A stretch of DNA of 64,000 nucleotides from NCBI GenBank assembly GCA_015490715.1, contig WFXH01000029.1:1-64000 (forward strand), read 5' to 3'. The stretch comes from Saprospiraceae bacterium (GTDB taxonomy: Bacteria; Bacteroidota; Bacteroidia; Chitinophagales; Saprospiraceae). Positions 5,326 through 64,000 of this stretch are shown piece by piece; within the stretch, counting starts at the first letter, position 1, and each line of letters begins with the position of its first letter. Both the position numbers and the translations under genes were made by a program. Under the pieces are notes generated by a model. The model was not told the origin of the DNA. It worked only from the letters and a program-made list of their open reading frames with translations, and did no database searches.

Positions 5326-5546
5326 CAACAAGCGTGTTTTCGGTGTCAAGTGCGAAGCGTGCCCTCTAAACTCTCACAAAAGCCTCTCAGCGATTCAACT
5401 CTAAGATACGAGTTTTCTCAAAATTCGTGTATGAAATCGTGCATGCTCGGCATCGCTGTCCTCCGTGCCAAAGAGTGCACTATTTTATAACGACAACAAT
5501 AGAAAGCACTAACTTAGCCCGCGGACATTTCTCATGTGCTTGCTCC

Positions 5547-7136
5547 ATGACTGTAGTCTTACACACCATCCCTTATACGTCGTATCCCTCACCTCGCCCT
5601 AATGACTTGCAATACATGTTGGGTGAAGGACCGTGGTGGAAGCCCCTACCATATGCTCCTACTTTAGAAGGCCTCCAGGGGGCCGCTAAGTCCATAGCTT
5701 TTCCACCCACCGTGCGGGAGGTGTTGTGGCAAGCACTACAACAACAATACCTACGGCTCGGCCTTGACGACAGTAAACTTTTGCCGCTCAAAGATGCCCA
5801 AACGCTCACCGTAGCGACGGCACACCAGCCCATCCTCTATGGCGGTCCCCTCTTCGTCCTTGTCAAGATTGCAGCCACCATACATCTGGCCAGATACCTC
5901 AGCCAAATACTTCACCGATCCATTATCCCCGTATACGTCTTGGGCAGTGAAGACCACGACCACGAAGAGGTGTTTTCCCTTCAGTTAGGCGGTCAACGTA
6001 GGCGTTTTCCCGTAGACAAGCCCTATACCCCCGTAGGACGTGTACCAACGACAGGTATGGCCGCCTTCTTGCAACACCTCCTCACTGAACTCGGTGTGTC
6101 CACTCAAACCCCCTACCTTGCACATCTCTTCGAATCCCTTCACAGATTTGACACCTATGGCCCTGCATTTCAATACTTCATTGCCAGGATCTTTGAACAG
6201 ACCGAACTGGTAGTCGTCGATCCCGACGATGGTGCACTCAAACAGCTCTTCATCGACGTCTTCGAAAGAGAAATCGCCACCCACGCCAGCCGTGACCACA
6301 TCGAACGCATGCGCCAAAAGTGGACACAGCTCGGCATCGAAATCCATCAAATACGATCGCCCTACCTGCCCGTATTTTACATGGGAGCAGGTGTGCGCGA
6401 GCGCATCGAACGCCATGGCGACACATGGAAGACAACGCTTACGCAAACACAGTTTAACCATACCGCACTTATCGATACCCTACACCGATATCCACAACAT
6501 TTCAGCCCTGGAGTAGCCCTGCGTCCATTGTACCAACAGCGCATACTCCCTAACATCGCCTTCGTGGCAGGCCCTTCCGAGCTCCTCTACTGGCTCGAGT
6601 TGGGCGAATTATTTGCCCACTACGGCGTATTCTATCCCACACTATTGCGCCGCAACAGCATTTTCTTCCTGAAGGACGATATGTATGAAATCGTGCGCCA
6701 GTTCGGACTCCTCGACCACTTTTTCCAGCCCTACCATCAATGGCAAGATTTCATACTGACTCACCACCTCGGTTTGAGCCATCCCCTACCGTTCGTACGC
6801 AAAAAAGTCGAAGCACTTACCCAGCTGTTGACAGATTTCAACAACCTCCACGATCTGAAAATGGACAGTTACGTCGAAGCGCAGGCCACCCGAATGCGCA
6901 ACCGCGCCGAAGAGACGGCTCAAAAGCTCTGGAAAGCCCTCCGCAAAAAACACAAGGCGCTCTTCACACCTGTATCCCAGGCGTATCGCACAGCCTTCCC
7001 ACAGCCCAATGTCTGGCAAGAGCGCTATACGAGTAGTCTCGAATGCAGCTTATACACCCAAGAGCCGTGGTGGCTGGATTTAGCGGAGCTTCTCCACCCT
7101 TTGGAACACACTTTTTACCTCTTGCGCATGCCCTAA
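5547..7136 (+). CDS. bshC: Putative cysteine ligase BshC (bacillithiol biosynthesis)
   Basis: The 529-residue product matches the usual BshC length of about 530 when started at the ATG at 5547; an upstream GTG at 5427 would add 40 residues with no family match. Recognisable blocks are TVATAHQPILYGGPLFVLVKIA, the VLGSEDHDHEEV stretch with the HxxxE-type active-site region, RPLYQQRILPNIAFVAGPSELLYWLEL and a C-terminal coiled-coil segment. BshC is thought to add cysteine to glucosamine-malate in the last step of making bacillithiol, a thiol used in Bacteroidota and Firmicutes instead of glutathione. The other bsh genes are not in this window. A TAACTTAG box at 5510-5517 is one base off the -7 consensus. 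Confidence 0.93.
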   Translation: MTVVLHTIPYTSYPSPRPNDLQYMLGEGPWWKPLPYAPTLEGLQGAAKSIAFPPTVREVLWQALQQQYLRLGLDDSKLLPLKDAQTLTVATAHQPILYGGPLFVLVKIAATIHLARYLSQILHRSIIPVYVLGSEDHDHEEVFSLQLGGQRRRFPVDKPYTPVGRVPTTGMAAFLQHLLTELGVSTQTPYLAHLFESLHRFDTYGPAFQYFIARIFEQTELVVVDPDDGALKQLFIDVFEREIATHASRDHIERMRQKWTQLGIEIHQIRSPYLPVFYMGAGVRERIERHGDTWKTTLTQTQFNHTALIDTLHRYPQHFSPGVALRPLYQQRILPNIAFVAGPSELLYWLELGELFAHYGVFYPTLLRRNSIFFLKDDMYEIVRQFGLLDHFFQPYHQWQDFILTHHLGLSHPLPFVRKKVEALTQLLTDFNNLHDLKMDSYVEAQATRMRNRAEETAQKLWKALRKKHKALFTPVSQAYRTAFPQPNVWQERYTSSLECSLYTQEPWWLDLAELLHPLEHTFYLLRMP

Positions 7137-10756: not shown

Positions 10757-13273
10757 TCACGGATGATACACTCGAAACGACTTCGTCGTCTGGCCCACAG
10801 TTAGCGTAAAGTACAGCCATCCTGAAGGAAGTGGTACCCCTCTTAAATCGATGTCGATCACAGCCGTTCCCTCTTGACAGCTACCTGTCCAAACACCATA
10901 CCTCCTACCCAGCGCATCGTAACAGCTGACCAAATACGACGTAGCCCGGGGAATATCGACGCATTGGATGTGCAAATGCCCTCGGTCTTCAGTCGTCACT
11001 ACGGCACAATCCATTTGTGCCTTACCACCGCGAAGAGCAATAGAGCCCTTTTCTCCATGTATGAAATCGTAGTACGTACCCTCCATTAGGATTTTACCCT
11101 GTCGCAGCAATCGATCCAACTCGTGCTGCTGCACTTCAGGCACCTCGATACCAACGACCAGCGGTGAAGTCGATGACATCTTCGGGTATTGCACCAACCA
11201 CCGACCGTCTGCAAGACGCTGCACTTCCACTCCAGGTTGTATCGCATAAAGCGATAGTTCGATAGGAGCTACCCGAGCAAGGACCATGCCCATCGGCCTG
11301 CTCGGATCCAACTGGATGGTGTATCGATGCCCATCACTACGCGTATTGGGATCTGCTGCAACATACAACTCTCGCTTCGGACCGACCGACTCCCTAAAAA
11401 AGGGCAGCAAACTCGGAAGAATATCGCCCTTGACGATGAGATGATAACGGATTCCAACGGTAGTATCGATGAGCTCTCCAAGCGATAATACTCCCATTTG
11501 CGCATTGTCCCATGGTGGGGAAATCCCCTTGAGATTGTCCGACGGAACTACACATACATTACGTATACTTCGCGAAGTACTGCGACCAAAGATGATCAGC
11601 TCCTTCACCAAACGCTGATAATCCAGCTCATCAACCCTACCATCGTTGTTGACATCGGCTGCGATGAACTGCTCTGGAGCAAGTGTCACTTGTCCCCAAA
11701 GGTATTGCCGCAAGTACAGGGCGTCGACGACATCCGCGCGCATGGCCATGGGTTTGGTATAGATACCAAACGTGTTCCATCGCCTTCCACCGGGCAAACT
11801 ATCTACCGAAAAAAGCCCCTTCTGATCCACTGCCAACCAGAGCGTATCCCAGCGAAAGGCCGTATCGCTGCGCACGACCACCGTCGTATCCCACCAGCGA
11901 CGCACATAGACAGTACCACTCCGCCCGACAAAGGTATCGCGATGTTCGACGATGACCGTATCCGTACTCGTCTGTACAAGGTGGTGCCTCGAATCCAGAT
12001 CGACCATCGCCACGCGCACCCGAGATAGATCCGCCTTGCTGTATGGTACGATCCTGCCGACAACGCCCACCCTGCGCAGCGAATCCGGCCGACAGTTGGC
12101 AATGCGCGCTTGATTGTTTTGAATGATCACCTTCGTGCGACAAAAACTCTGATTGCCATGCACATCGGTCACCCATATCTCAACATCGTTTTCCCCCACG
12201 TGATCACAAGTAAATGTGCGTACCATATCGGTCGTATCCGACGAAAACGAAAATCGCAAGGGCCCATTGCCACACGACGGACTGCTCTTCTTGTCTAAAT
12301 CCTTGGCCCACACATCGACCATCCCCACGTCGTTGATACCGTCGCGGTTGGTATCAATGCCCATCAACACCGCAATGATTCCCTTCTTACAAAAGACGAG
12401 TGGAGGAATGGAGTTTTTGACCACCACGCGTACCTTGAGCTTGAGCTCCTTGCCACATCCGTACTCTACGATGTAGTAAAACACCGTCTCGCCAATGGGG
12501 TAAAAACCCGACGCATCCGGGCCCGTAGTGTCTGCATACGGAGAAGTATGGCGTACTTCTAAAACATGACCACAGGTATCCACAGCTACGACCGTGTCCA
12601 TGTCGATATACGCTCCATCGCAGTTTTGTGCATCGACAACCCACTCGCGCTGCCACCCCTCAATGTGCGGCGTGTCCTTTTGTGCGAGCTTGATAATCTG
12701 ATACTTTGTCCAGATACCCCCACTCTGCGGATCACTGGGATCCCAGGTGCACCAATCGACCACCTTCCACTTGCGCACAATCTTGGTGCATCCTGGCCCA
12801 AAGGTCAAGCGAAATTCCCTGTACGAATACCCCGGCTTACTGCAGGGCTTGCGCCGAAAACGCGGCCGCGCATACTTATCCGGAAGATCCTTCGGTGCCA
12901 GCGATATCCGACAACCCATCGTATCAAAAGACTCGGGCCATATGATGTCGTCTTCGGTAAAGGTCTCCACCTGTTGCACCTCAATGACCTGTACACACTG
13001 ATGCCATTGACCGTGCGCATCCATAGCCTTCCAGATACGCCGAATCTCCCCTACCCCACATATGTTGAGATCCCGTTCGACACGATCCGGAGGACCCGCA
13101 TCGCGCCACCGATAATGCTCGTAAATCTTCGCATTGCCAAACCTCGACAAGTCCCACAAATCCTCCGTACAATCGACCACCGTATCCGACGGACAGACAA
13201 GGCGAAATCCTCCCCCTGCCCAAGCACTACCCACCAAAACTCCAAAGACAAACAAGAACACCGTAATCTTCAT
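10757..13273 (-). CDS. Large secreted T9SS cargo protein with EF-hand/dockerin-like segment
   Basis: The 838-residue product has a signal peptide (ending SAWAG) followed by cysteine-containing, beta-rich repeats about 90-130 residues long with recurring patterns like CTKIVRKWKVVDWCTWDP and VVKNSIPPLVFC, typical of HYR/Ig-like extracellular repeats in Saprospiria. Around residue 550 is FIAADVNNDGRVDELDYQRL, a calcium-binding DxNxDGxxD loop as in dockerins. The end (YDALGRRYGVW..., LPSGWLYFTLTVGQTTKSFRVYHP) matches a type A T9SS C-terminal domain, so it is expected to be exported by the Por/Gld machinery encoded at 28-34 kb. The function of the repeats is unknown. Confidence 0.75.
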   Translation of the reverse strand: MKITVFLFVFGVLVGSAWAGGGFRLVCPSDTVVDCTEDLWDLSRFGNAKIYEHYRWRDAGPPDRVERDLNICGVGEIRRIWKAMDAHGQWHQCVQVIEVQQVETFTEDDIIWPESFDTMGCRISLAPKDLPDKYARPRFRRKPCSKPGYSYREFRLTFGPGCTKIVRKWKVVDWCTWDPSDPQSGGIWTKYQIIKLAQKDTPHIEGWQREWVVDAQNCDGAYIDMDTVVAVDTCGHVLEVRHTSPYADTTGPDASGFYPIGETVFYYIVEYGCGKELKLKVRVVVKNSIPPLVFCKKGIIAVLMGIDTNRDGINDVGMVDVWAKDLDKKSSPSCGNGPLRFSFSSDTTDMVRTFTCDHVGENDVEIWVTDVHGNQSFCRTKVIIQNNQARIANCRPDSLRRVGVVGRIVPYSKADLSRVRVAMVDLDSRHHLVQTSTDTVIVEHRDTFVGRSGTVYVRRWWDTTVVVRSDTAFRWDTLWLAVDQKGLFSVDSLPGGRRWNTFGIYTKPMAMRADVVDALYLRQYLWGQVTLAPEQFIAADVNNDGRVDELDYQRLVKELIIFGRSTSRSIRNVCVVPSDNLKGISPPWDNAQMGVLSLGELIDTTVGIRYHLIVKGDILPSLLPFFRESVGPKRELYVAADPNTRSDGHRYTIQLDPSRPMGMVLARVAPIELSLYAIQPGVEVQRLADGRWLVQYPKMSSTSPLVVGIEVPEVQQHELDRLLRQGKILMEGTYYDFIHGEKGSIALRGGKAQMDCAVVTTEDRGHLHIQCVDIPRATSYLVSCYDALGRRYGVWTGSCQEGTAVIDIDLRGVPLPSGWLYFTLTVGQTTKSFRVYHP

Positions 13274-13777
13274 ATCTCAAACCCTTTGAATACCAACAAA
13301 CATATTAAAATCAATGCAAATATATAACATTTTTGATTTAAGGAGGATATGCATTAAAATTTTTTACAATACGTATGTTCTTTACACTCTTTGCTTAATT
13401 TCTATCACGATTTTGCTTATATCCTATGTCCTCATGGGGCGTATCAGCCACAGTAACGGCAATCCCCTCGGTGATTTTTGATCGTAATTACAAGCGATGG
13501 GCAATCGGCATTCTACCTGTCTACCTGCTTATACTTCGCATCATAATGGGCAATAGTGTTCAACTGTGTATAAAATGTGTATAAAATCGTGCTTTATGAG
13601 CTCTCCGTGGTTGCGAATAGCTAAAACCGCATTCCACACTTTGCGATGAGAACACTCCTTCATCCTAAAAAGCCTGCGTATGAAATGGCCATCTGCTGCC
13701 CAGGGATTTATTAAGAGGCGACTCCACAAATGTCGCATGCACAATTTTATACCAATGAAAATGAAGACACCCAAGCT
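13274..13777. other. Long non-coding gap with four copies of the TATRAAAT motif
   Basis: About 500 bases without a convincing gene. Next to the minus-strand gene is a TATATTTG -7 box. The middle is featureless AT-rich sequence. The far end contains TATAAAAT at 13569-13576 and 13580-13587 (tandem, plus orientation), TATGAAAT at 13679-13686 (plus), and the reverse form ATTTTATA at 13744-13751. The second and last copies, with their GTGC/GCAC flanks, form a long-range inverted pair. Confidence 0.5.
13317..13324 (-). promoter_or_regulatory. Bacteroidota -7 box (TATATTTG) for the T9SS cargo gene
   Basis: On the minus strand TATATTTG fits TAnnTTTG exactly and lies 43 bases before the ATG at 13273, in an otherwise AT-rich upstream region. 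Confidence 0.55.
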
Positions 13778-15658: not shown

Positions 15659-15695
15659 GGCATAGCTGATTTTAGATGCGGTGTACAATTTCATA

Positions 15696-15703
15696 CAAAG
15701 ATA
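15696..15703 (-). promoter_or_regulatory. -7 box (TATCTTTG) followed directly by the TATGAAAT motif
   Basis: On the minus strand TATCTTTG is followed at once by TATGAAATTGTAC, so the predicted transcription start falls inside the recurring TATRAAAT motif. The ATG of the Omp28-like gene follows about 38 bases later. Confidence 0.65.
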
Positions 15704-19343: not shown

Positions 19344-19363
19344 GCACACAACGATTTTATACA

Positions 19364-23393: not shown

Positions 23394-23748
23394 TCGATTG
23401 CATAAATCATGCCATTATCCCATCCATTTAATCTTTTAATCTCAGCAATAATCCGTATAAAATGGTGCACCGATACGATAGTCGTCACCTGCCATTTCCA
23501 TTACAAGCAAATGCAGGCACCACTCCTCTCATCGAAGGGATAACTGCCGATGCCATACTTTAAATGCCCACGATTTTATACGTACTGTATGAAATGGTTG
23601 GACAAAAAGCCATTGGGTGCATAAAATCATTGGCATTGGAGGGAGGCTGATGCAGCGAAAACGCGGAATATTGAATGGATTTTCCTATATTTATCGTAAC
23701 TTTGCTGGCCGATGTGCGATTAGACAAACCGCAAAAATTTTGAAAACG
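23394..23748. other. Non-coding gap rich in TATRAAAT motif copies
   Basis: The gap holds TATAAAAT at 23456-23463 (plus), ATTTTATA at 23573-23580 (minus), TATGAAAT at 23588-23595 (plus) and CATAAAAT at 23620-23627 (plus). The copies at 23573 and 23588 face each other across 7 bases, giving a hairpin (ATTTTATAC-GTACT-GTATGAAAT). A good promoter for the E1 gene follows at 23697-23704. I see no gene in it. Confidence 0.5.
23697..23704 (+). promoter_or_regulatory. Promoter of the E1 gene (-7 TAACTTTG, -33 TTG at 23671)
   Basis: TAACTTTG is an exact -7 match, with TTG at 23671-23673, 23 bases upstream, as a possible -33 element. The predicted start of transcription near 23709-23711 excludes in-frame ATG/TTG codons before it and supports the start codon at 23749. 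Confidence 0.65.
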
Positions 23749-28029: not shown

Positions 28030-28189
28030 TGGCGCACAATTTTATACCCTCTGTACCCAGCGTTCGACCATTTTACACCACAGAGTGCATCATTTAATAA
28101 TGTACGACTTCGGCGCGTTTTATTGGTATGAAATGGTTGGTCAAATAGTTGATGAAAACTCTGCATAGGAGGTACATTTACGGTTGAAC

Positions 28190-29300: not shown

Positions 29301-29353
29301 CGTTTGTGTTTTATCGCAAAACGGCTTACTGGGTGTTGAAAAATGTACGGCGA

Positions 29354-30592
29354 ATGAACAACAAAAGGTGTCCGGCCGGGTGGGCTGTATTGATTGCAGC
29401 GATGGTCATATCGAGCTGTGGCACGCAGCAAACGGGCGAATTGATTGGCGTGCCCAACAGGCCAAAGTGGAAGGGAATACAGCCGTATGGTATGGTCTAC
29501 GTTCCCTCCGGTGTCACGCAAATTGGCCAGTCGGATGAAGACATTTTCCACCTGAGGATCAACCGCCCAAAGACCATCTCCATTCAGGGATTCTTCATGG
29601 ACGACACGGAAATCACCAATAACGAATATCGCCAGTTTGTCTATTGGGTACGTGACTCGATCGCACATACCATCTTGGGCGACTTCATCGAAGACGAAGA
29701 CGGTAACACGTACATCGACTGGGATGTAGAAATCGATTGGGAAGACGAGCTCTTGGATGAAATGTACTATCAGGGCGATATGGCACTGCCCGGCAAGCGC
29801 GAGCTCAATGTCGAGCTCTTCGAATACGAGTACACCTGGATCGACTGGCAAAAAGCCGCACGCGATAAAAACGCGCGACGTACCGAACTGGTCAAACGCG
29901 AAAAAGTCAACATCTATCCCGATACCCTGGTATGGATACGCGACTTTGTATACAGCTACAACGAACCACTGACGCGAAATTACTTCTCCCATCCCGCTTA
30001 TGACGATTATCCCGTCGTAGGTGTCAATTGGAAGCAGGCCAAAGCCTTTTGCCACTGGCGCACCCAACTGTGGAACAAGTACAAAGACGATCCCTTCAAT
30101 ACCGAAGACTTTCGACTACCCACCGAATTTGAATGGGAATACGCTGCGCGCGGAGGTCATTTGAGTGCTCCATATCCTTGGGGAGGCTACTATCTGCGCA
30201 ACAAAAAGGGATGCCTGCTGGCCAACTTCAAGCCCGGCCGCGGCAATTATCCCGAAGATGGCGGCCTACAGACTGTCAAAGCCGATGCGTATTTCCCCAA
30301 CGACTACGGACTGTACAACATGGCCGGCAACGTAGCAGAATGGACAGAAAGCGCTTACTTCGACAATGCCTTCAACTACATCCACGACCTCAATCCCAAT
30401 ATCAAATACGACGCAGCGAACGACGATCCCGAAGTCTACAAGCGCAAAGTCATCCGCGGAGGATCGTGGAAGGATATCGGCTACTACCTCCAAACTGGTA
30501 CGCGCCACTGGGAGTATCAAGACTCCGCAAAATCCTATATCGGCTTCCGCTGTGTCTTAACCTTTATGGGACGATCCATCCATGACTTTTAA
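29354..30592 (+). CDS. gldK: GldK/PorK lipoprotein of the type IX secretion system
   Basis: About 412 residues from ATG 29354 (MNNKRCPAGWAVLIAAM...VISSCG, lipobox). The rest has the sulfatase-modifying-factor-like fold that GldK shares with FGE: DDTEITNNEYRQFVYWV, FRLPTEFEWEYAARGG, NDYGLYNMAGNVAEWTES, VIRGGSWKDIGYY and GFRCVL. GldK forms, with GldN, the periplasmic ring bound to the outer membrane in T9SS. An earlier in-frame ATG belongs to the promoter region. The gene starts the gldKLMN cluster. Confidence 0.95.
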   Translation: MNNKRCPAGWAVLIAAMVISSCGTQQTGELIGVPNRPKWKGIQPYGMVYVPSGVTQIGQSDEDIFHLRINRPKTISIQGFFMDDTEITNNEYRQFVYWVRDSIAHTILGDFIEDEDGNTYIDWDVEIDWEDELLDEMYYQGDMALPGKRELNVELFEYEYTWIDWQKAARDKNARRTELVKREKVNIYPDTLVWIRDFVYSYNEPLTRNYFSHPAYDDYPVVGVNWKQAKAFCHWRTQLWNKYKDDPFNTEDFRLPTEFEWEYAARGGHLSAPYPWGGYYLRNKKGCLLANFKPGRGNYPEDGGLQTVKADAYFPNDYGLYNMAGNVAEWTESAYFDNAFNYIHDLNPNIKYDAANDDPEVYKRKVIRGGSWKDIGYYLQTGTRHWEYQDSAKSYIGFRCVLTFMGRSIHDF

Positions 30593-30723
30593 TGTGGAAA
30601 ATTGTTCTGCGTGCTTACTCTGGCCCAATTCAATGAGTGCATAGTACGCATTGAAATGACGTATGTAAACGAGGAGTAGTGGCAAAATCACTTTGAAATA
30701 CGTAACCAAAAACTTGTATAACA

Positions 30724-31302
30724 ATGGCGTTTTACAAAAGCAAGAAGTTTAAGTACATTAAGAATCTGCTCATCGGTATTGGCGCATCGATCGTGATGCT
30801 CGGTGCATTGGGCAAGATCAATGCGTATCCATGGGGCAGCATGGCCATTACCGCGGGTCTCACGACCGAGGCCATTATCTTTTTCATTCTGGGTATTCTC
30901 CCCCCAGAGGAGACGTATTATTGGGAAAAACTCTATCCCGGGCTCAACGACTACCATGCACAAATTTCCCCACTTACCGCAGGGCCGGGGCAGGGTTTGG
31001 ATCCCAATTTCGTCCAAAACAGCTTGCAGGAGATGCTCAAAGAACTGCAGACCATGTCTCGCAGTCTTGCTTCCCTGAAGGCCCTTCAAGAAGTGGACTT
31101 CAGCAAGACCAAAGACCACCTCAAAGCCGTGGATGATTTCTATGCCAAGGTAGTCGAGACGATGCAAGTGATCAGCGAAACGGCGGAAGACACCAAGCAA
31201 TACCGCGAAGCACTCAGTGCGTTAAATCGCAATCTCGCCGCACTCAACTCCGTCTACGGCAATGTGCTGTCTGCCTTCCGCAGTGGATTGGCCAATGTGT
31301 GA
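30724..31302 (+). CDS. gldL: GldL/PorL inner-membrane motor subunit of T9SS
   Basis: 192 residues with the GldL N-terminus: MAFYKSKKFKYIKNLLIGIGASIVMLGALGK and, after a short loop, AITAGLTTEAIIFFILGI, the two transmembrane helices that form the proton-powered motor with GldM. A conserved glutamate in the second helix (TTEAIIF) is thought to take part in proton flow. The rest is a cytoplasmic helical tail. It follows gldK by about 130 bases. Confidence 0.95.
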   Translation: MAFYKSKKFKYIKNLLIGIGASIVMLGALGKINAYPWGSMAITAGLTTEAIIFFILGILPPEETYYWEKLYPGLNDYHAQISPLTAGPGQGLDPNFVQNSLQEMLKELQTMSRSLASLKALQEVDFSKTKDHLKAVDDFYAKVVETMQVISETAEDTKQYREALSALNRNLAALNSVYGNVLSAFRSGLANV

Positions 31303-31346
31303 TTAAAACAGTGATTAATATTAAGCTCAAATAAACTTCAATAGCG

Positions 31347-32912
31347 ATGTCCATCCCGAAGGAACCGCGCCAGATCATGATCAACATCATGTACTTGGTG
31401 TTGACCGCCCTACTGGCTCTCAACGTATCGGCCGAAATCTTCAACGCCTTTAAGATGATCGATCGCGGCCTCAACAGTGCAGCCAAATCTCTCGACGACA
31501 AAAACGCCAAAATGGCCGAGACGATCATCAAAAATGCCGAAGCCAACAAGCGGTACGAAAAGTACAAAGAGCGCGTCCCCCTTGCTCAGCAATATTCCCG
31601 AGAATTGACGCAGTACATCGACTCCATCATCACCTATCTGATCGACCAAACCGGCAACAAAAACGGCGTGATCGACGAAGGGGACAAGCGCTACGACGGA
31701 GAGTGGAAGGGTATTCGCGATAAGGATATCACCACACGATACCTCGTCGATCAAGGCAAAGGCGAAGAGCTCAAAAGGAAAATCCTCGAATACCGAGAAA
31801 AGTTTCTCGCCCTGGCCGACAGCGGCGATATCCATAAGTTGGAACCAGAGATCCCGCTCGTCATCGACGATACTTCGTGGAAAAAATCGCGTACGCGACG
31901 CCGCAACTGGGCAGACTTCGTCTTCAACCACATGCCCGTAGGGGCGACTATACCGATCCTCACGAAGTTTAAAACCGACGCCAAAAACGCCGAATCGGCA
32001 GTGCTCAGCTATCTCTTCGACAAAGTGGGTGGTGGTAAGCTTGAGCTGGAAAATTTCTTTCCCCTCTCGTCACCTAAAAAGTCGTATGTTGTGGTCGGCG
32101 AGCCGTACGAAACGGAAATCAGCTTAGGAGCTTCCGCCGGTGAATCGTCCAAAGCCAAGATTGAAATCTTTGTCAACGGCCAAAAGCTCCCAACTCAAGA
32201 CGGCGTAGCAAAGTGGCGCGTGGTACCCAAATCCGTAGGCGTCAAAAAGTACAAGGTCACCATCCGATTGACCAACCCGGTGACCAAAGAGGTCAAGGAA
32301 TTTTCGAAGACCTTCGAATACGAGGTTGGACAGCGTTCGGTGAGTATCTCCCTGGATAAAATGAACGTCTTTTACATCGGCGTCGACAATCCCATTACGG
32401 TATCCGCATCGGGCGTGTCGACCAATGCGCTCCAAGTCAAGGGCGAAGGCATCACCATCACGCGCGATCCCAATGGCGGAGCAGGTGACTACATCGTGCG
32501 CGCGAACAAACCCGGCAAAGCCAAAATCATCCTCACCGCCAACGGTCAGCACCTCGGCACGTTCGAGTACCGCGTCAAGCGTATACCCGATCCCACACCC
32601 ATGTTGGGCAAGTACAAGGGAGGCGTCATCGGCAATGGTACCTTTAAAGCCTTTAATGCCCTGCGCGCCGCGCTTCCAGGCTTTGATTTCGACGCCAAAT
32701 GTAGAATAGTAGGCTTCCGCATGGTGCGCCTACCCAAGCGAAAAGATCCACAAATCGCAGACAACAAGGGAGGAAAATACGGAAGCGAAGCCCTCCGTCT
32801 GCGCAACCTCGCCAAGCCGGGAGACAAGTTTTTCTTCGAAAACATCAAGGCCAAGTGCCCCGGCGACAAAGCGGCACGTACCTTGTCACAGATGGTCTTT
32901 AACATTCGCTAA
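31347..32912 (+). CDS. gldM: GldM/PorM motor/periplasmic shaft of T9SS
   Basis: 521 residues, the usual GldM size. A single N-terminal transmembrane helix (IMINIMYLVLTALLALNVSAEIFNAF) with the start SIPKEPRQ... is followed by a helical and several beta-rich periplasmic domains (D1-D4), e.g. GDYIVRANKPGKAKIILTANG. GldM pairs with GldL in the motor and reaches across the periplasm to the GldK/GldN ring. Confidence 0.95.
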   Translation: MSIPKEPRQIMINIMYLVLTALLALNVSAEIFNAFKMIDRGLNSAAKSLDDKNAKMAETIIKNAEANKRYEKYKERVPLAQQYSRELTQYIDSIITYLIDQTGNKNGVIDEGDKRYDGEWKGIRDKDITTRYLVDQGKGEELKRKILEYREKFLALADSGDIHKLEPEIPLVIDDTSWKKSRTRRRNWADFVFNHMPVGATIPILTKFKTDAKNAESAVLSYLFDKVGGGKLELENFFPLSSPKKSYVVVGEPYETEISLGASAGESSKAKIEIFVNGQKLPTQDGVAKWRVVPKSVGVKKYKVTIRLTNPVTKEVKEFSKTFEYEVGQRSVSISLDKMNVFYIGVDNPITVSASGVSTNALQVKGEGITITRDPNGGAGDYIVRANKPGKAKIILTANGQHLGTFEYRVKRIPDPTPMLGKYKGGVIGNGTFKAFNALRAALPGFDFDAKCRIVGFRMVRLPKRKDPQIADNKGGKYGSEALRLRNLAKPGDKFFFENIKAKCPGDKAARTLSQMVFNIR

Positions 32913-32930
32913 TTACCAAAAGATAGGGTC

Positions 32931-33845
32931 ATGAAATTGTCGGCATGGAAATATCTCGGGATATTTGCTCTCTTCGCCCTCATCACATCAGTTGCTGCCT
33001 ACGGCCAAATACTCGAGAGCGACGAAGGGCTCAAAGAAGCGGATGAAGAACCCCGCGTCGAATTCGACACTTCCAAATACGTCGACGGCATCGTCGAGCG
33101 TACCATTATCCAAAACACGCGGGTATTGCCGTACGAGCCCGTTCGTGAAGCGGACATCCCCTGGGAAAAACGGGTCTGGCGCATCCTCGACGTGCGCGAA
33201 AAGATGAATCTGCCCTTTGTCTACCCCAATCGCCCGTTTTTCCAGATCCTCGCCGAATTGGCTCTCGATGGTAAGATCTTAGTCTTCAAAGACGACAATT
33301 TCCGCTCCCCCCTATCCCGTGAAGGCATCGAAAAGCTCCTCTATCGCGTCGATACTGTCACAGATATTGACGAAGAGACCTACGAGGAAAGAATCACCAT
33401 CGTCCACAACGAAATCAACTACGAAGACATCAAGAAGTACCGCATTAAAGAGGTGTGGTTTTTCGACGAAGAGGCCTCGCGCGTGATGGTGCGCATCCTC
33501 GGCATAGCCCCCATCCTGGACGTATACGATCCCGAGACGGGAGATTTCAAGTACTCCCTTCCGATGTTTTGGGTCTACTTTCCCGAGGCCAGAAAATACC
33601 TCGCACATGAGCCTATCTTCGTCGATTACAACGATGTCTCGCCCATGACTTGGCAAGACCTCTTTGAGGGGCGGTATTTTTCGAGCTACATATATAAAAT
33701 CACCAACCCACTGGACTTGCGCATCGAAGACTATATCCGCACTCCCGTCGATGATCCATTGCAAGAGGGTATCGACCGCCTTCTGGAATCGGAGCAATTT
33801 AAAAACTACCTGCTCGACTTTGAGCAGGATTTATGGTCCTATTGA
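32931..33845 (+). CDS. gldN: GldN/PorN periplasmic ring protein of T9SS
   Basis: 304 residues beginning with a signal peptide (ending AAYGQ). The core YVDGIVERTIIQNTRVLPYEPVREADIPWEKRVWRILDVREKMN is a GldN hallmark, followed by RIKEVWFFDEEASRVMVRILGIAPI and FWVYFPEARKYL. GldN binds GldK to form the ring that faces the outer membrane. It closes the operon, followed by a strong terminator at 33874-33906. Confidence 0.95.
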   Translation: MKLSAWKYLGIFALFALITSVAAYGQILESDEGLKEADEEPRVEFDTSKYVDGIVERTIIQNTRVLPYEPVREADIPWEKRVWRILDVREKMNLPFVYPNRPFFQILAELALDGKILVFKDDNFRSPLSREGIEKLLYRVDTVTDIDEETYEERITIVHNEINYEDIKKYRIKEVWFFDEEASRVMVRILGIAPILDVYDPETGDFKYSLPMFWVYFPEARKYLAHEPIFVDYNDVSPMTWQDLFEGRYFSSYIYKITNPLDLRIEDYIRTPVDDPLQEGIDRLLESEQFKNYLLDFEQDLWSY

Positions 33846-33911: not shown

Positions 33912-35660
33912 ATGATGAATAGCGACAGCCAAATACTCTGGCGCATCGTCCAGCTCGCGATCCCCTATCGGCGCATCCTGTACGCGGTACTGATCCTCGC
34001 CGTCTTGCTCGCTCCCTTGCGGCTGTCGTCTCCCTATTTGATTAACCTCATCGTCGACCATTACATACAGCGAAGCCCTTACTCCCTCATTGCACTGTAC
34101 TCTGCTCTCTTCATCCTCATGCTTCTACTGCAGACCGCAGCAGAATACGGTTTTGTCTATCTATCGGAAAAGCTCGGTCAAGAGATCATCTTGACCCTGC
34201 GCACGAAGTTGTACAACCGCATCATGGACTTTCGGCTCCAGTACTTCGACCGTACGCCTATTGGTAAACTCACTACGCGTTGTGTCAACGATATCGAGAC
34301 ACTTGGGGTCGTGTTTACCCGCCAGGGACTTCCGATGATCATTGCAGACTTTTTGTCGATCATCGCCATACTCATCTTAATGTTGATCTTAAGCGTTAAG
34401 ATGACCTTGATCTTTTTGTTGACCATGCCCCTGATGCTGATCGCCACTTACATCTTCAAGGAAAAGGTCAAGCGTTCGTTTCAACGCGTACGCCAGCGGC
34501 TCGCTGAGATGAATGCCTTTATGCAAGAGCGCATCAGCGGCATCCAGACGGTGCATGTATTGGATGCGCAACAGACTGAAATGCGTCATTTTGACCGCAT
34601 CAATGCTGCCTACACTAAAGCGCATCTCGACACTGTACTGTACTATTCCGTGTTTTTTCCCGTGGTAGATTGGATATCTTCGCTGGCTTTAGCGCTCATG
34701 GTATGGTGGGGTGCGGTGGAAGTATTGCATGCAGAGGTGACAATCGGTACCTTAGTAGCCTTTCCCATCTACATTCAGCGCATTTTTCGCCCTATACGAT
34801 TTCTCGCCGATAAATTCAACAATATCCAGATGGCCATGGTGGCGTCGCACCGCGTGTTTCGATTGATGGATGATCCTACTCTACCTGAAGACGATACCGG
34901 CAAGGTCCTCTCCGAGGTCGAAGGTGCCATTCGCTTGAAGGGCCTGTATTTTGGCTATGACCCCAACCATTTCATACTCAAAGACATCCACTTATACATT
35001 CCATCACGCAGTACCTGTGCATTGGTAGGGGCCACAGGATCGGGCAAGACGTCGATTGCCAACATCATATGCAAACTCTACGACTATCAAAAGGGGCACG
35101 CCTACCTTGACGGTGAAGAGATTCGCTCGATTCAGCGCCACAGTCTCCGCAAACATACAGGCGTGGTCCTACAAGATGTGTTTCTCTTTACCGATACGAT
35201 TTTAGAAAACATACGTCTGCGCGATTCGTCGATCAGTCGGGATCAAGTCGTTCGGGCGGCACGTCAGATTGGAGTACACGAGCTCATCTGTCAATTTCCG
35301 GATGGATACGATTATATGTTGCAAGAACGCGGAGCCAATTTAAGTGTGGGGCAGCGTCAACTCATTGCCTTTGTTCGGGTGCTCGTGCTCAATCCTCGCA
35401 TATTAATACTCGACGAGCCGACTTCTTCTATCGACGTACTCACGGAAAAGCTCATCCAGGATGCCCTACCCATCATCACGAAAAATCGCACGACGATCAT
35501 CATTGCGCACCGGCTGTCGACCATTCGCAATGCCGATAAGATCGTCGTTATGGAAGACGGCCGCATCGTCGAAGAGGGCGATTTTGAAAGCCTGCTTCAT
35601 AAAGGCGGGTATTTTAAAAACCTCTACCAACGACAATCGCAACAGACGCATATTTGTTAA
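33912..35660 (+). CDS. ABC exporter (fused membrane and ATPase domains)
   Basis: About 582 residues (ATG at 33912 or 33915). Six hydrophobic segments occur in the first 300 residues. The ATPase part has Walker A GATGSGKTS near residue 374, the ABC signature LSVGQRQLIAF, and Walker B RILILDEPTSS with the D-loop and switch IAHRLSTIRNADKI. It resembles the MsbA/multidrug half-exporters that work as homodimers. The substrate cannot be told from the sequence. The fifth signature residue varies (LSVGQ instead of LSGGQ), which is common in these exporters. Confidence 0.92.
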   Translation: MMNSDSQILWRIVQLAIPYRRILYAVLILAVLLAPLRLSSPYLINLIVDHYIQRSPYSLIALYSALFILMLLLQTAAEYGFVYLSEKLGQEIILTLRTKLYNRIMDFRLQYFDRTPIGKLTTRCVNDIETLGVVFTRQGLPMIIADFLSIIAILILMLILSVKMTLIFLLTMPLMLIATYIFKEKVKRSFQRVRQRLAEMNAFMQERISGIQTVHVLDAQQTEMRHFDRINAAYTKAHLDTVLYYSVFFPVVDWISSLALALMVWWGAVEVLHAEVTIGTLVAFPIYIQRIFRPIRFLADKFNNIQMAMVASHRVFRLMDDPTLPEDDTGKVLSEVEGAIRLKGLYFGYDPNHFILKDIHLYIPSRSTCALVGATGSGKTSIANIICKLYDYQKGHAYLDGEEIRSIQRHSLRKHTGVVLQDVFLFTDTILENIRLRDSSISRDQVVRAARQIGVHELICQFPDGYDYMLQERGANLSVGQRQLIAFVRVLVLNPRILILDEPTSSIDVLTEKLIQDALPIITKNRTTIIIAHRLSTIRNADKIVVMEDGRIVEEGDFESLLHKGGYFKNLYQRQSQQTHIC

Positions 35661-41429: not shown

Positions 41430-41523
41430 TAGTGCCAAAGGTAGGAAAATATGTGTGAAATGCGATGGAGGGCGAATGCTCCAGTAGGTTGATGGCGTGG
41501 GGCGTATAAAATGGTTGACGACA

Positions 41524-44942: not shown

Positions 44943-45458
44943 TCACTGTGGTGGGGGGTCGGCTTCAAGGGCCTGGTCGTCGTAAAATCGCAGGTCGATG
45001 TTGCGCAATTGTTTGGTGCGGTAGATGATTTGACCTGCGTGATGGCTCATGTGTTCGATCACATGGATTACGATTTCATACCCACTCATCTCATAGCATT
45101 GCACGCGATAGGTCTTCTGAAGCTTCTGGCGGTCGAGTCTCTCGATGACTTCACGCAATTGCCTTTCGAGTTCGACGAGGCGTTCGATGAGTTCGAGCCT
45201 GGTGCAGGGATGCAGTGGAGCAAACTCCCTGCTTCGCTGACGCTCATAGGGCAGCCCCCCCAATGTCTTGAGCATATACTGGGAGGCATTGCCGATGAGG
45301 TGAAGCACCAACACGCCAATGCTGTTGCATCGCTCGCAGGGTGAGGCCCATATTTGTTCGTGCCAAAGCTCATTGAGACAACGGCGTATGCGGAGCAGGG
45401 ATTCGTCGAACACATGCCGGCGAAAGGATTTTTTGAGCGCTTCGACGTCGTCGATCAT
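44943..45458 (-). CDS. DinB-like metal-dependent family protein
   Basis: 171 residues in a four-helix-bundle pattern: [19 protein letters not shown] and [20 protein letters not shown] hold the three histidines (HL near 52, H near 135 and 139) that ligate a metal in DinB proteins. The family includes thiol transferases that use bacillithiol or mycothiol; a bacillithiol enzyme gene is in this window, but a link is not shown. No SOS box was recognised. It is upstream of ndk on the same strand. Confidence 0.8.
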
Positions 45459-51051: not shown

Positions 51052-51210
51052 GCGAACTTTTATGCGATAGTTCACACATATTGCTTTATTGCATGCGTAA
51101 TGCACTGGTATCTAACATTTCATACATACAAAAAGGATACATACATACTCACTGAGCCGGTAAGCTCGGCAACTACCATTTCATACCAGCAAAAAAGTCG
51201 CACAATGCTG

Positions 51211-53851: not shown

Positions 53852-56359
53852 TTACCATTTCACAAATTTAAGAACTCCCGAAGTATTGTCATTCGTATGA
53901 AATTGTACGACATACGCCCCTGCGGGAAGGGAGGACACCGAAACAGGCGCATTGGCCATACTGGTCCCTTTCATCACGAGGTCACCGTGCTGGTTGTAGA
54001 TCCCATATACGATCGGTTGTGATAGAGGAGATGTACCCTCAGGCAAACGGAAAAGGAATACATCCCGTACGGGGTTGGGGAAAAGTTGAATCTGTAGCAT
54101 TCTACGCCCCCTTTGATCGGCGACGGCAGTTGCTGTCGAAATCTGTCCTGTCCACACTCCTCGACCATGTGTAAAGGCGTACAAGCGACTGTCGGTGGGC
54201 CGTATTTTTACCGTAAAGACGGGTACTCTCGGGACAGTTGGATCCTTATGCCATACCTCCCCTTCGTCGTACGAGAGGAAAAGACCGTAATCCGTACCCA
54301 GGGCAATGAGCTCAGGGTACTGAGGAGCCACTGCTATGGAATTGATCGGCAGATACTTCGGCAGGTTGGACGAGATGTCTATCCACTCTGCATGATCCGA
54401 CCAGATGTTTTCCACCCGCCAGATGCGTGAGTCATTGTCGTAGTTGGACATCCCCACATACAACACGTCGGGGTTGGTGGGATGCTGGACGATCGTGCGT
54501 ATGAAATCGTTCTTGAGGTGCTCGGGCGCCTGTTCGTCAAGTGGGACATTCTCGATCACTGACGTACCGTCCCAGACCAGTCGCCGCAATTCCCCCTTCT
54601 TGCCTCCAATGAAAAATACGCGCCATTGCGGTACATCGGGATGTGGAAGGATGATCGCCGCATAGGGCTGTGTGAACTCCTCTGTCACGACTGTCCACTT
54701 CTGGCCGCGATTTTCAGTGTAGTAGACGCGATCCTTTTTCATGAGCAAAATGTGCCGAAAATCCTCGGGGTCGATGTAAAAGGGGGTGATAAAATAGTTT
54801 TTACCCTCCCCCTCAATGGTCTTTGCAATGCGCTGCGCTTGAGAAGTGTTCAGGTCTTTGACATAATAGAGCACGTTGCGCTGAATAGAGAGGTATAGCT
54901 CCCGATCGTTGTCTTTGTTGACATAGCAAAAGCCTCCATCTCCTCCCCATATTCTTCGAAAGACATCGTTATCCATCTTACCGAGTAAAGTGCCGTTGTC
55001 TTGTGTGCCACCGATGACTTGATCGGAGTACATGAAATAATCTCCCGTATAAAATTGTGTGATGTTGAGCCCATCACTAAAGGGGCCCAGATAGATGACG
55101 CTATCGTCTTCGATGATATATTCATAAATGCCCCCGTCATTCGTCAGATAAAACGCCTCAGGGTCGTGGGGATCGAAGAGGATGTAGTGTTGATCGACAT
55201 GCCCTATGCGCATTAGCTTCCAAGTGTTTCCTCCGTCGTTGGAATACGCAGCACCTATGCTTCCGACGACGACGAAGTCGGGATTGTCGGGATGGACCTG
55301 AATGCACATGGTGTACCAGGCGTACGCACTGGCCATGTGGGGTTTGGTGGTCTCCTTCCAGGTCTTGCCGCCATCGCGACTGGCAAAGACACCGTATATT
55401 CCCCTCTCTCCTGCCTTACGATCTTCGGCAATAGCGTACATCACCATGGGATTACTCTCACAGATCGACAGGTCAATGCGCCGAATCGGCAGGTCGGCCT
55501 CAGGTGCAAAGGGGAGAAATTCGGTAGCGTCCAAGTTGGACTCGTGCAGCCGATAGATGCCCTTGCCGCGGATGGCCACGTACACCAGTGAGTCGCGCGT
55601 CACCTCGATATCCGTACATTCGTCATAGAGAATCTTTTGAAAGGTCTCTCCCGCATCGTGCGAGACGTAAAGGCCGTTTTTAGAAGCTACGTACAGGGTA
55701 TGCGTATCGGTACGCGAGCACACGACGCGCCAGCAGAGGTAGAGATCATTGATCTGCGAGCCCGGCAGGAGCTCGAAGGTGCGTCCGCCATCGGTACTCT
55801 TTAAGATACCCTCACCTTCGATTCGGGCAGAGTTTCCCGTCACCTCTCCCGTGGCTGCGTACAACACCTCGGGCTGAAAGGGATTCTGGGCAAGGAAGCT
55901 CACCGCCGGCGTCTCGCCGTTATCGTCAATAGGTATCCATTGATGGACTACATAATCATAGCGCCATATGCCCCCCGAAATGCCGGCAGTGACGAAATTG
56001 TCGGGATCGGTCACATCGACGACCAATCCACGCACGCGACCATGAATATTCGACGGCCCCATTTCCTGTACGTCAACGAGTCGATACTCACTGCGCAATT
56101 CGATGTCGCGCATCCGCTCCTCCCACCTTCGAAAATACCTTCGTATGCCCATCGGCATATTGGGATCGCTGATGTATTTGAATGTCTTCAAGTCATCTTC
56201 CCAGCCGGGATGGTCACCCTGCGACTCGACGGCTTGCCAATCACTCTCGCCTCCCTCGGGGATATCTTCCCCGCATTGGGTCATCAAGAGCAAAGCCGTA
56301 ACCGACGAAAATACCAAGCCGAACAGGATAAAAACCAGATATCTATAGGACTTGCGCAT
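53852..56359 (-). CDS. T9SS cargo with BNR/sortilin-like beta-propeller
   Basis: 835 residues, starting with a hydrophobic segment (LVFILFGLVFSSVTALLLMTQC, possibly a lipobox). It contains many BNR/Asp-box-like repeats (STDGGRTFELL, SHDAGETFQKI, SRDGGKTWKE, SNDGGNTWKLM, YTENRGQKWTVV, SYDEGEVWHKD), as in sortilin/VPS10 and exosialidase-like propellers. The end (LQIQLFPNPVRDVFLFRLPE ... LPAGAYVVQFHTNDNTSGVLKFVKW) is a type A T9SS domain. It should be secreted through the Por/Gld system and may bind or cleave glycans or proteins. The lipobox-like cysteine is unusual for a cargo. Confidence 0.88.
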   Translation of the reverse strand: MRKSYRYLVFILFGLVFSSVTALLLMTQCGEDIPEGGESDWQAVESQGDHPGWEDDLKTFKYISDPNMPMGIRRYFRRWEERMRDIELRSEYRLVDVQEMGPSNIHGRVRGLVVDVTDPDNFVTAGISGGIWRYDYVVHQWIPIDDNGETPAVSFLAQNPFQPEVLYAATGEVTGNSARIEGEGILKSTDGGRTFELLPGSQINDLYLCWRVVCSRTDTHTLYVASKNGLYVSHDAGETFQKILYDECTDIEVTRDSLVYVAIRGKGIYRLHESNLDATEFLPFAPEADLPIRRIDLSICESNPMVMYAIAEDRKAGERGIYGVFASRDGGKTWKETTKPHMASAYAWYTMCIQVHPDNPDFVVVGSIGAAYSNDGGNTWKLMRIGHVDQHYILFDPHDPEAFYLTNDGGIYEYIIEDDSVIYLGPFSDGLNITQFYTGDYFMYSDQVIGGTQDNGTLLGKMDNDVFRRIWGGDGGFCYVNKDNDRELYLSIQRNVLYYVKDLNTSQAQRIAKTIEGEGKNYFITPFYIDPEDFRHILLMKKDRVYYTENRGQKWTVVTEEFTQPYAAIILPHPDVPQWRVFFIGGKKGELRRLVWDGTSVIENVPLDEQAPEHLKNDFIRTIVQHPTNPDVLYVGMSNYDNDSRIWRVENIWSDHAEWIDISSNLPKYLPINSIAVAPQYPELIALGTDYGLFLSYDEGEVWHKDPTVPRVPVFTVKIRPTDSRLYAFTHGRGVWTGQISTATAVADQRGRRMLQIQLFPNPVRDVFLFRLPEGTSPLSQPIVYGIYNQHGDLVMKGTSMANAPVSVSSLPAGAYVVQFHTNDNTSGVLKFVKW

Positions 56360-59098: not shown

Positions 59099-59184
59099 GC
59101 GCACCATTTTATACAATGGTAACAGCTCATCCTCAGTTTAGTTGAAAAATACTACTTTAAAGTCCAACCTTCGTGCGTGCGCTC

Positions 59185-62436: not shown

Positions 62437-62529
62437 GCCCTACAGGCGCACCATTTAATACCCATCGGTTAAACCTTTCCCACGTCACGGTATCCAAGGG
62501 GTACTGTCCTCACAGTCAAACTCCGCTGT

Positions 62530-64000
62530 ATGCAAACATCGACCCTTCAACACATTGGATGGATGTTGTTCTGTATGAAATGGTTGTCGTGGAGTCTGTA
62601 CTCCACCACCACACTCTTTGGACAGGACACGGTACATATCGCGATCCGTGCCACGGCATTGGGGCCTGAAATCGATGGCCGGATCTTTGGCACCAACCTC
62701 ACCAACGAATCGCGTACGGCGTATAAAACCGTACACGACTCGGCATTTGTCCGCGCTGCGACCTCCATGGGCATCAAAGTCGTCCGCTTTCCCGGCGGCA
62801 ACAACGCCGATGCCTACGACTGGAAAGCGCATGTGCGCATCCAGCCCGGGCGCCGGGTGTCCTGGGAGGGCGCGATCACACTAGCCGAAATAGCTGCTTT
62901 TTGCCAACGCATCGGCGCCGAGCTTTCCATCACGGTCAACTTTGGTACCGGTACAGCTCAAGATGCGGCAGACCTCGTCGAGTATCTCAACGGGCCGACC
63001 GATTCGCATTGGGGGGCATTGCGGGCAGCCCATGGTTTCGAAGAGCCACTCGATGTCCGATTTTTCGAAATCGGCAATGAAATCAACCAACCCCATCAGT
63101 GGTACCACTCCTGGACGGCCGAAAATCCATACAAGTACTACTTCGGCGGTTCAGAAGAGCGGCGCGGCAATTACCTCGCCTCCGCCAACCTCGACCCCAT
63201 CGGCAAAAAGGGCGATGCCTTCAAGGCCAACGGCCAAGCGCACCAACTCTACTACCTGCGCTTTCCACCCGTTCGCAATGTCCAAGTATACTGGGCCGCC
63301 TCCGAAGGCGACGCGCGCTCGGGAAAATTTTCCCTATGGACACCCGCGGCCTCCCTTGAGGACTACGGTCCTCTCGACAGCGTTTACCAACTCGATTCCC
63401 TCGAAGGCACCCTCCAGTTTGGCGACGGCATCCACGGCGCCATCCCACCTGTGGGCTCGTGGTTTGTCGTCGAATACACCACCTACGGCCACGAAGGCTT
63501 CTTAGATTTCGCCCGGGCCATGCGCCGCGCACCTTCGTCGGTCCCTATACAGATCGGTGCCGTGATGCTACCCTTCCACAACCGCAAGCCCATCGCGTCC
63601 GACGACACTATGCGGCAAATTCTCCAACAGATCGATTTTATCGTCAGCCACCAATACGGAGCAAGCATCCCCACCGACCGCTACTCTTACCGTCGTCAAA
63701 TCGCCCTCGAACGCACCGAAGGAACGAGCTACCAGCGCTATGCTCGCTTCCAGCAGTACGCCCGCCAACTCGGAGTGGACAAGAGCTACGGCATGGGCAT
63801 CACTGAGTGGAATATCTTCCTCGATGTCGATAGCTGGAAGCTCAACCGCACCCAAGAGGCCGCCGTTATCGCTGCAGAGTTTTTTATACGCCTCATCAAC
63901 GGCTTAGAGCGTTTTCCCGTATACATTGCTCACCAGTTTGCCCTCGGCGGCGTATGGCTCTCGCTGTATAACAACTGGACGAGCTACCAGATAGGCCCCA
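62530..64000 (+). CDS. GH51-like alpha-L-arabinofuranosidase-type glycosidase (3' part missing)
   Basis: The frame is open from ATG 62530 to the right edge (about 490 residues seen); ATGs at 62563 and 62575 are alternative starts. All leave a hydrophobic N-terminus ending LFGQD, probably a signal peptide. Family-like features are FGTNLTNESRTAY, VRFPGGNNADAYDW, FGTGTAQDAADLVEYLNG, FFEIGNEINQPHQWY (acid/base Glu) and GMGITEWNIFLD (candidate nucleophile Glu). This is the clan GH-A layout of family 51-like arabinofuranosidases. A T9SS sorting domain, if any, lies beyond the window. Confidence 0.75.
   Translation, partial: MQTSTLQHIGWMLFCMKWLSWSLYSTTTLFGQDTVHIAIRATALGPEIDGRIFGTNLTNESRTAYKTVHDSAFVRAATSMGIKVVRFPGGNNADAYDWKAHVRIQPGRRVSWEGAITLAEIAAFCQRIGAELSITVNFGTGTAQDAADLVEYLNGPTDSHWGALRAAHGFEEPLDVRFFEIGNEINQPHQWYHSWTAENPYKYYFGGSEERRGNYLASANLDPIGKKGDAFKANGQAHQLYYLRFPPVRNVQVYWAASEGDARSGKFSLWTPAASLEDYGPLDSVYQLDSLEGTLQFGDGIHGAIPPVGSWFVVEYTTYGHEGFLDFARAMRRAPSSVPIQIGAVMLPFHNRKPIASDDTMRQILQQIDFIVSHQYGASIPTDRYSYRRQIALERTEGTSYQRYARFQQYARQLGVDKSYGMGITEWNIFLDVDSWKLNRTQEAAVIAAEFFIRLINGLERFPVYIAHQFALGGVWLSLYNNWTSYQIGP

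Follow-up and report, generated by a model that had tools for sequence, protein, structure and literature searches.

The dehydrogenase E1 gene of this Saprospiraceae genome (E1_dh and transketolase domains) begins, by its conserved protein start, at position 23749 of the window, the whole 64-kb stretch of DNA analyzed here, and adjoins a region, 23456-23627, in which a preliminary description had noted four copies of a motif, some of them as inverted pairs. The four are indeed present: between 23455 and 23630 the 12-bp word GTATRAAATNGT occurs three times exactly and once with two mismatches. We compared these copies in the host genome (G000) with a second genome of the same genus (G001), to which its DNA is ~89% identical and its E1 protein 97% identical. 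The outermost copy, GTATAAAATGGT followed by GCA (23455..23466, plus strand), is conserved in G001, as is the second exact copy, GTATAAAATCGT (23570..23581, minus strand). At the third, GTATGAAATGGT (23587..23598, plus strand), G001 has GTATAAAATGGT, and the degenerate copy GCATAAAATCAT, with its 2 mismatches (23619..23630, plus strand), is identical in both genomes.

The second and third copies stand back to back with 5 bp between them and supply the left and right arms of a hairpin, ATTTTATAC-GTACT-GTATGAAAT (23573-23595), just as had been described. Folded as RNA, it reaches -13.3 kcal/mol (z -3.5), and the pair at 5420-5500 likewise gives a z of -4.2. Between G000 and G001 the 5-bp loop has diverged and the arms differ by a single change, GTATGAAAT to GTATAAAAT, at a degenerate purine (R) position and requiring no change in its partner. 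Because this position varies at 20-24% of exact copies, the change is no evidence of compensation, and we found no compensatory arm changes at the hairpin between the two genomes.

A TAACTTTG element lies ~45 bp before the E1 start, inside a block nearly identical between the two species, which places the motif copies 5' of what is plausibly a housekeeping promoter; the E1 promoter is probably this element, at about 23697. The words TATCTTTG, TAACTTTG and TACCTTTG are sense-enriched upstream of genes, including at 23690-23710 of the window, and represent the Bacteroidota TAnnTTTG promoter element. Regulation of E1 was considered as a role for the cluster and rejected, as the sister genus (g57) lacks it: the region upstream of E1 contains no copy in either G057 or G157.

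A 12-bp word dispersed through the genome

The inverted motif pairs before E1 are samples of a genome-wide, strand-symmetric, 12-bp repeat. Further copies do exist elsewhere: G000 (2.45 Mb, 115 contigs) contains 674 exact copies of the 12-mer, 350 on the plus and 324 on the minus strand, against 0 for the reversed control, and a 15-mer version allowing at most 1 mismatch gives 148 matches against 1. Unbiased word counting led to the same sequence, with the most over-represented G000 words at 7, 8, 10 and 12 bases all being parts of GTATRAAATNGT; in 1.01 Mb, ACCATTTCATAC was seen 73 times where 0.2 were expected. In that same 1.01 Mb, exact, one-mismatch and two-mismatch copies stand at 297:292:652, compared with 0:21:341 for the reversed control. 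Exact copies are thus as frequent as one-mismatch copies, which indicates that the word is maintained; with one-mismatch copies included, extrapolation gives ~1,400 copies in G000. Whole-genome counts throughout are pattern searches, and copy statistics cover 1.01 Mb (G000), 0.36 Mb (G001) and 0.64 Mb (G057). Aligned copies have a sharp core, in which position 5 is a purine and position 10 is unconstrained, and a weak D-S-R tail. In both genera a T-rich stretch lies only 5' of the core (40-44% T vs 15-23% A), and the aligned copies share nothing outside the 12-mer and this flank that would make up a longer unit.

The window itself holds 36 matches to the 15-mer at up to 3 mismatches, where 4.4 are expected and 0 of 100 shuffles reached that number. 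All of the inverted pairs previously listed exist. An exact intergenic copy at 5429..5440 (plus) is faced by a one-mismatch copy at 5479..5490 (minus); exact intergenic copies pair at 13579..13590 (plus) and 13741..13752 (minus), and again at 28036..28047 (minus) and 28126..28137 (plus); and a one-mismatch copy at 62450..62461 (minus), exact in G001, pairs with an exact copy at 62573..62584 (plus). Two more exact copies are intergenic (19351..19362 and 51175..51186, both minus), and one lies directly upstream of ruvB (41504..41515, plus). At gene starts, an exact copy overlaps that of a ZIP transporter gene (59103..59114, minus) and another is close by a start (15685..15696, minus). The remaining exact copies fall within coding sequence: in a BshC-like gene (6683..6694, plus), in sense orientation at 45070..45081 (minus), and antisense at 11059..11070, 53895..53906, 54499..54510 and 55047..55058 (all plus) and at 34966..34977 (minus). 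The window also contains, at 29306-33845, a gliding/type IX secretion cluster resembling gldK-gldL-gldM-gldN, as judged from translations inspected by eye.

Gene calls came from a simple custom codon-based caller, making the following fractions approximate: ~45% of exact copies lie wholly between genes, ~45% within them, and the remainder are at gene edges. Those within genes comprise 52 sense and 82 antisense copies in 1.01 Mb of G000. Per kb, exact copies number 1.13 in intergenic and 0.15 in intragenic DNA, a ~7.5x difference. By a looser score, convergent, divergent and tandem gaps are about equally dense, at 2.1-2.7 copies per kb, and there is a sense peak at start codons, 17 of 758 of which fall inside an exact copy; the ATGAAA contained in GTATGAAAT explains this peak at least partly. 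The longest copy-free gap (L042:1148-12044, 10.9 kb) encloses genes for two very large repeat-rich secreted-type proteins. We rejected the idea that it is imported DNA, its 10.9 kb being about the length expected by chance.

The claim that copies are arranged as inverted pairs held up only in a weaker, longer-range form. Pairs less than 70 bp apart are divergent (16), convergent (19) or same-strand (24), with spacings of 6-63 bp, and, with any orientation and any spacing represented, there is no hairpin architecture or other fixed arrangement of close pairs. A structural RNA or terminator was likewise rejected as an explanation for the hairpin, given these arbitrary close pairs, only 4/59 of which lie in convergent gaps; the single Rfam match in the window is a tRNA. 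Over longer distances, neighbors on opposite strands are in excess, an effect that is modest and was found during exploration: 166/258 among G000 exact copies, compared with 140.5 in strand shuffles (p 0.0006), and 145/231 compared with 122.1 among sister-genus copies with at most 1 mismatch (p 0.0012). In G000 the excess is seen within about 2 kb and fades beyond 2-4 kb, and this alternation gives the "inverted pairs" a weak, long-range basis. Like-oriented copies tend to avoid each other, as if each served the DNA on one side, and the alternating orientation hints at a word with a single reading direction.

The core of the word is strongly conserved within the genus. Between G000, and G001 with its 313/313 exact copies on the two strands, the fixed core positions are 99.0% identical at 21 intergenic exact copies and 99.3% identical at 30 coding ones, with flanks 77% (intergenic) and 88% (coding) identical. 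None of 2,000 random 12-mer samples reached this conservation. The R position, meanwhile, changes freely (76-80% identity). Core positions are kept against mutation and degenerate positions are free, as is characteristic of DUS/USS, the DNA uptake sequences of other bacteria.

Distribution and dialects

A screen with the 15-mer rose clearly above background in only two of 199 family genomes, both of the host genus. Following up weak 15-mer signals with the 12-mer uncovered g57, the genus whose E1 protein is closest (65-67% identity, the next being at 61%). Its genomes G057 and G157 carry 690 and 512 exact copies, with strands at 354/336 and 251/261, and reversed controls across the four genomes of the two genera number 0-14. 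Among 395 class genomes, a sample outside which g57 fell, only G000 stood out. In all, ~590 further genomes from the family and class do not rise above background, the remaining family genomes having been covered by the 15-mer screen alone, which could miss a genus whose tail differs from GTGCA. No comparable over-represented word was seen in 35-80 kb from each of five other family or order genomes.

The two genera use distinct dialects: in the host genus R is A or G and N is mostly C or G, and the sister genus has GGTATGAAATGGT. Their proteins are ~52% identical. Copies upstream of orthologues are shared between the genera with an odds ratio of 2.6 for exact copies (p 0.06) and 1.9 at up to 1 mismatch (p 0.14), a trend that may come from longer gaps before the same genes. 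Since the genera do not significantly share copy sites before orthologous genes, the word, rather than its places, appears to have been kept over the long term.

Other repeats were observed in these genomes. G057 (L206-L247) has the further over-represented word TGTAATACACAC and the tandem-like TGTGCTTTGTGC and ATGCGGTATGCG, and on G157 contig C12 (15417-15503) GTATGAAATGGT recurs 4 times with an exact 25-bp period. In an order-level relative, G025 (L168-L171), words around GAGTTATCGCCGAAA are repeated 5-6 times in 80 kb and may be another repeat family.

Candidate functions of the word

GTATRAAATNGT is abundant, strand-symmetric, conserved and divided into dialects, with no promoter or transposon traits. 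Several sequence features of DUS/USS are found here: a non-palindromic over-represented word, strand balance, no general orientation bias, and dialects. Because of its copy number, strand symmetry, presence in both genes and gaps, dialects, core maintenance and one-sided T-rich flank, the word matches this class as known from Neisseriaceae and Pasteurellaceae (PMC3630211, PMC2346458, PMC7811141, PMC12616744), and our analysis leads us to lean, if narrowly, towards GTATRAAATNGT as a candidate DNA-uptake-sequence (DUS/USS)-like repeat. In such a system, a sequence-specific surface receptor would bind free DNA at the word, favoring the uptake of DNA from the same lineage, which is dense in it. 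Copies would then be spread and maintained by repeated rounds of uptake and recombination at any site that the genome can tolerate, in intergenic gaps and on both strands of genes. We infer that the recognizing protein would be an uptake receptor and the bacterium naturally competent.

Known or proposed DUS/USS receptors are type IV minor pilins. For the motor ATPase of a type IV pilus or T2SS, only PF00437 matches below the Pfam cut-off were obtained, which counts against an uptake role. This pilus defines the known machinery but not the sequence class, and we therefore call the word DUS/USS-like rather than a member. ComEC was found in both host-genus genomes, and DprA in G000 and the other relatives searched with the exception of G001, in whose 95%-complete assembly it was not found; neither protein discriminates, because relatives without the motif carry them too. 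A possible variant, which we put forward tentatively and with some doubt, is that GTATRAAATNGT is a directional self-recognition uptake signal of Bacteroidota, independent of type IV pili and unrelated to DUS/USS, whose copies would alternate since each serves one side.

The main rival to an uptake role is that GTATRAAATNGT is the binding site of an abundant chromosomal protein, either nucleoid-structuring or a very global regulator, in the two genera. The ~7.5x intergenic density counts against uptake in that it would also be expected of such a site, and the sharp 12-bp specificity, the close pairs at arbitrary spacing and the core conservation are equally in keeping with one. The one-sided T-rich flank and alternating orientation could fit another directional DNA-binding protein, and the sharing of copies upstream of orthologues between genera is above zero (odds ratio 2.6, p 0.06). 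We nevertheless consider a chromosomal protein rather unlikely: many copies are intragenic, on both strands; convergent gaps are as dense as others; targets are not significantly common to orthologues of the two genera, with the E1 cluster unshared; and the number of exact copies is unusual for a regulator. Less probable again is a directional signal for recombination or chromosome processing, akin to Chi or KOPS. The over-representation and non-palindromic sequence of GTATRAAATNGT, and the avoidance of same-orientation neighbors within ~2 kb in both genera, are consistent with a signal of that kind. Chi and KOPS are, however, skewed with replication direction, whereas the strands of GTATRAAATNGT are about balanced on the large (fragmentary) contigs and in whole genomes, and the word is long, AT-rich and confined to two genera.

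Two further readings fare worse. A promoter element of the host lineage, with TATAAAAT as a -10-like box, is suggested by the resemblance to a -10 box, by copies directly before starts and by the 17/758 start codons within exact copies, yet we regard it as very improbable: convergent and divergent gaps are equally dense, there is no -35 partner, about half of the copies lie in genes, in either orientation, a separate element (TAnnTTTG) provides the sense-biased housekeeping signal, and the start-codon peak stems at least partly from the ATGAAA in GTATGAAAT. The preliminary description had itself doubted a pure promoter element, and the independence of copy density from gene context bears this out. 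It had proposed instead a REP-like palindrome or MITE remnant. Although the hairpin and inverted pairs exist, we attach almost no probability to that proposal, as G000 gave no RAYT/Y1_Tnp match, the copies have neither shared flanks, a longer unit, nor terminal inverted repeats with a target-site duplication, and no conserved palindromic intergenic unit of 20-40 bp was found. Copies also lie inside genes on both strands, close pairs are arbitrary in orientation and spacing, and no covarying arm changes were seen between G000 and G001.

We return, then, to the candidate uptake sequence. The literature searched, which excludes most subscription journals, contained no match to GTATRAAATNGT as a bacterial repeat and no description of a specific uptake sequence in Bacteroidota. 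As far as we know, the only established uptake sequences are those of Neisseriaceae and Pasteurellaceae, two proteobacterial families whose systems rely on pili. If the uptake reading is true, GTATRAAATNGT would be a third, independent case, would show that DNA self-recognition evolved convergently, and would imply a new receptor in a phylum where little of the transformation machinery has been identified. The word, its dialects and the contrast with the sister genus make the idea directly testable, and the lineage-restricted genes of the two genera offer a handle for a receptor search.

Comparison with known systems

Like GTATRAAATNGT, HIP1 of cyanobacteria (GCGATCGC) is a highly iterated short word; HIP1 is palindromic and tied to methyltransferases (PMC4390886), whereas GTATRAAATNGT is non-palindromic and longer. 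Within Bacteroidota, Riemerella is competent, and in R. anatipestifer the essential genes include ComEC, DprA, ComF and RecA along with others resembling no known uptake machinery (PMC8459023). R. columbina offers a precedent for self-DNA preference in the phylum; no specific word was identified there, and the repeat words listed are plain A/T-rich strings, in contrast to the specific, non-palindromic GTATRAAATNGT (PMC7965970).

The Pasteurellaceae USS (core AAGTGCGGT plus AT tracts) shares with our word the combination of a core and a one-sided AT-rich flank (PMC12616744), a spacing of ~1-2 kb, occurrence in both genes and intergenic DNA, and core conservation. The words themselves differ, and in GTATRAAATNGT as written the T-rich stretch precedes the core on its 5' side. 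The spacing within close inverted GTATRAAATNGT pairs is not fixed, whereas H. influenzae USS pairs have fixed offsets and usually lie at gene ends, as terminators (PMC7811141). H. influenzae has 1,465 USS cores and N. meningitidis 1,892 DUS (PMC7811141), and copy numbers in both of our genera are of this order, although at ~280 exact copies per Mb GTATRAAATNGT is below DUS. It is also unrelated to DUS (e.g. ATGCCGTCTGAA) in sequence and phylum, is AT-rich with a one-sided T-rich flank, and comes from a genome that gave no match to a type IV pilus motor above the Pfam cut-off and where its uptake role is putative. The likeness to the Neisseriaceae system is nonetheless extensive: both have a continuous 12-bp word on both strands in hundreds to thousands of copies, both have lineage dialects, which in Neisseriaceae are congruent with phylogeny (PMC3630211), and in both some genes start inside the word (PMC2346458).
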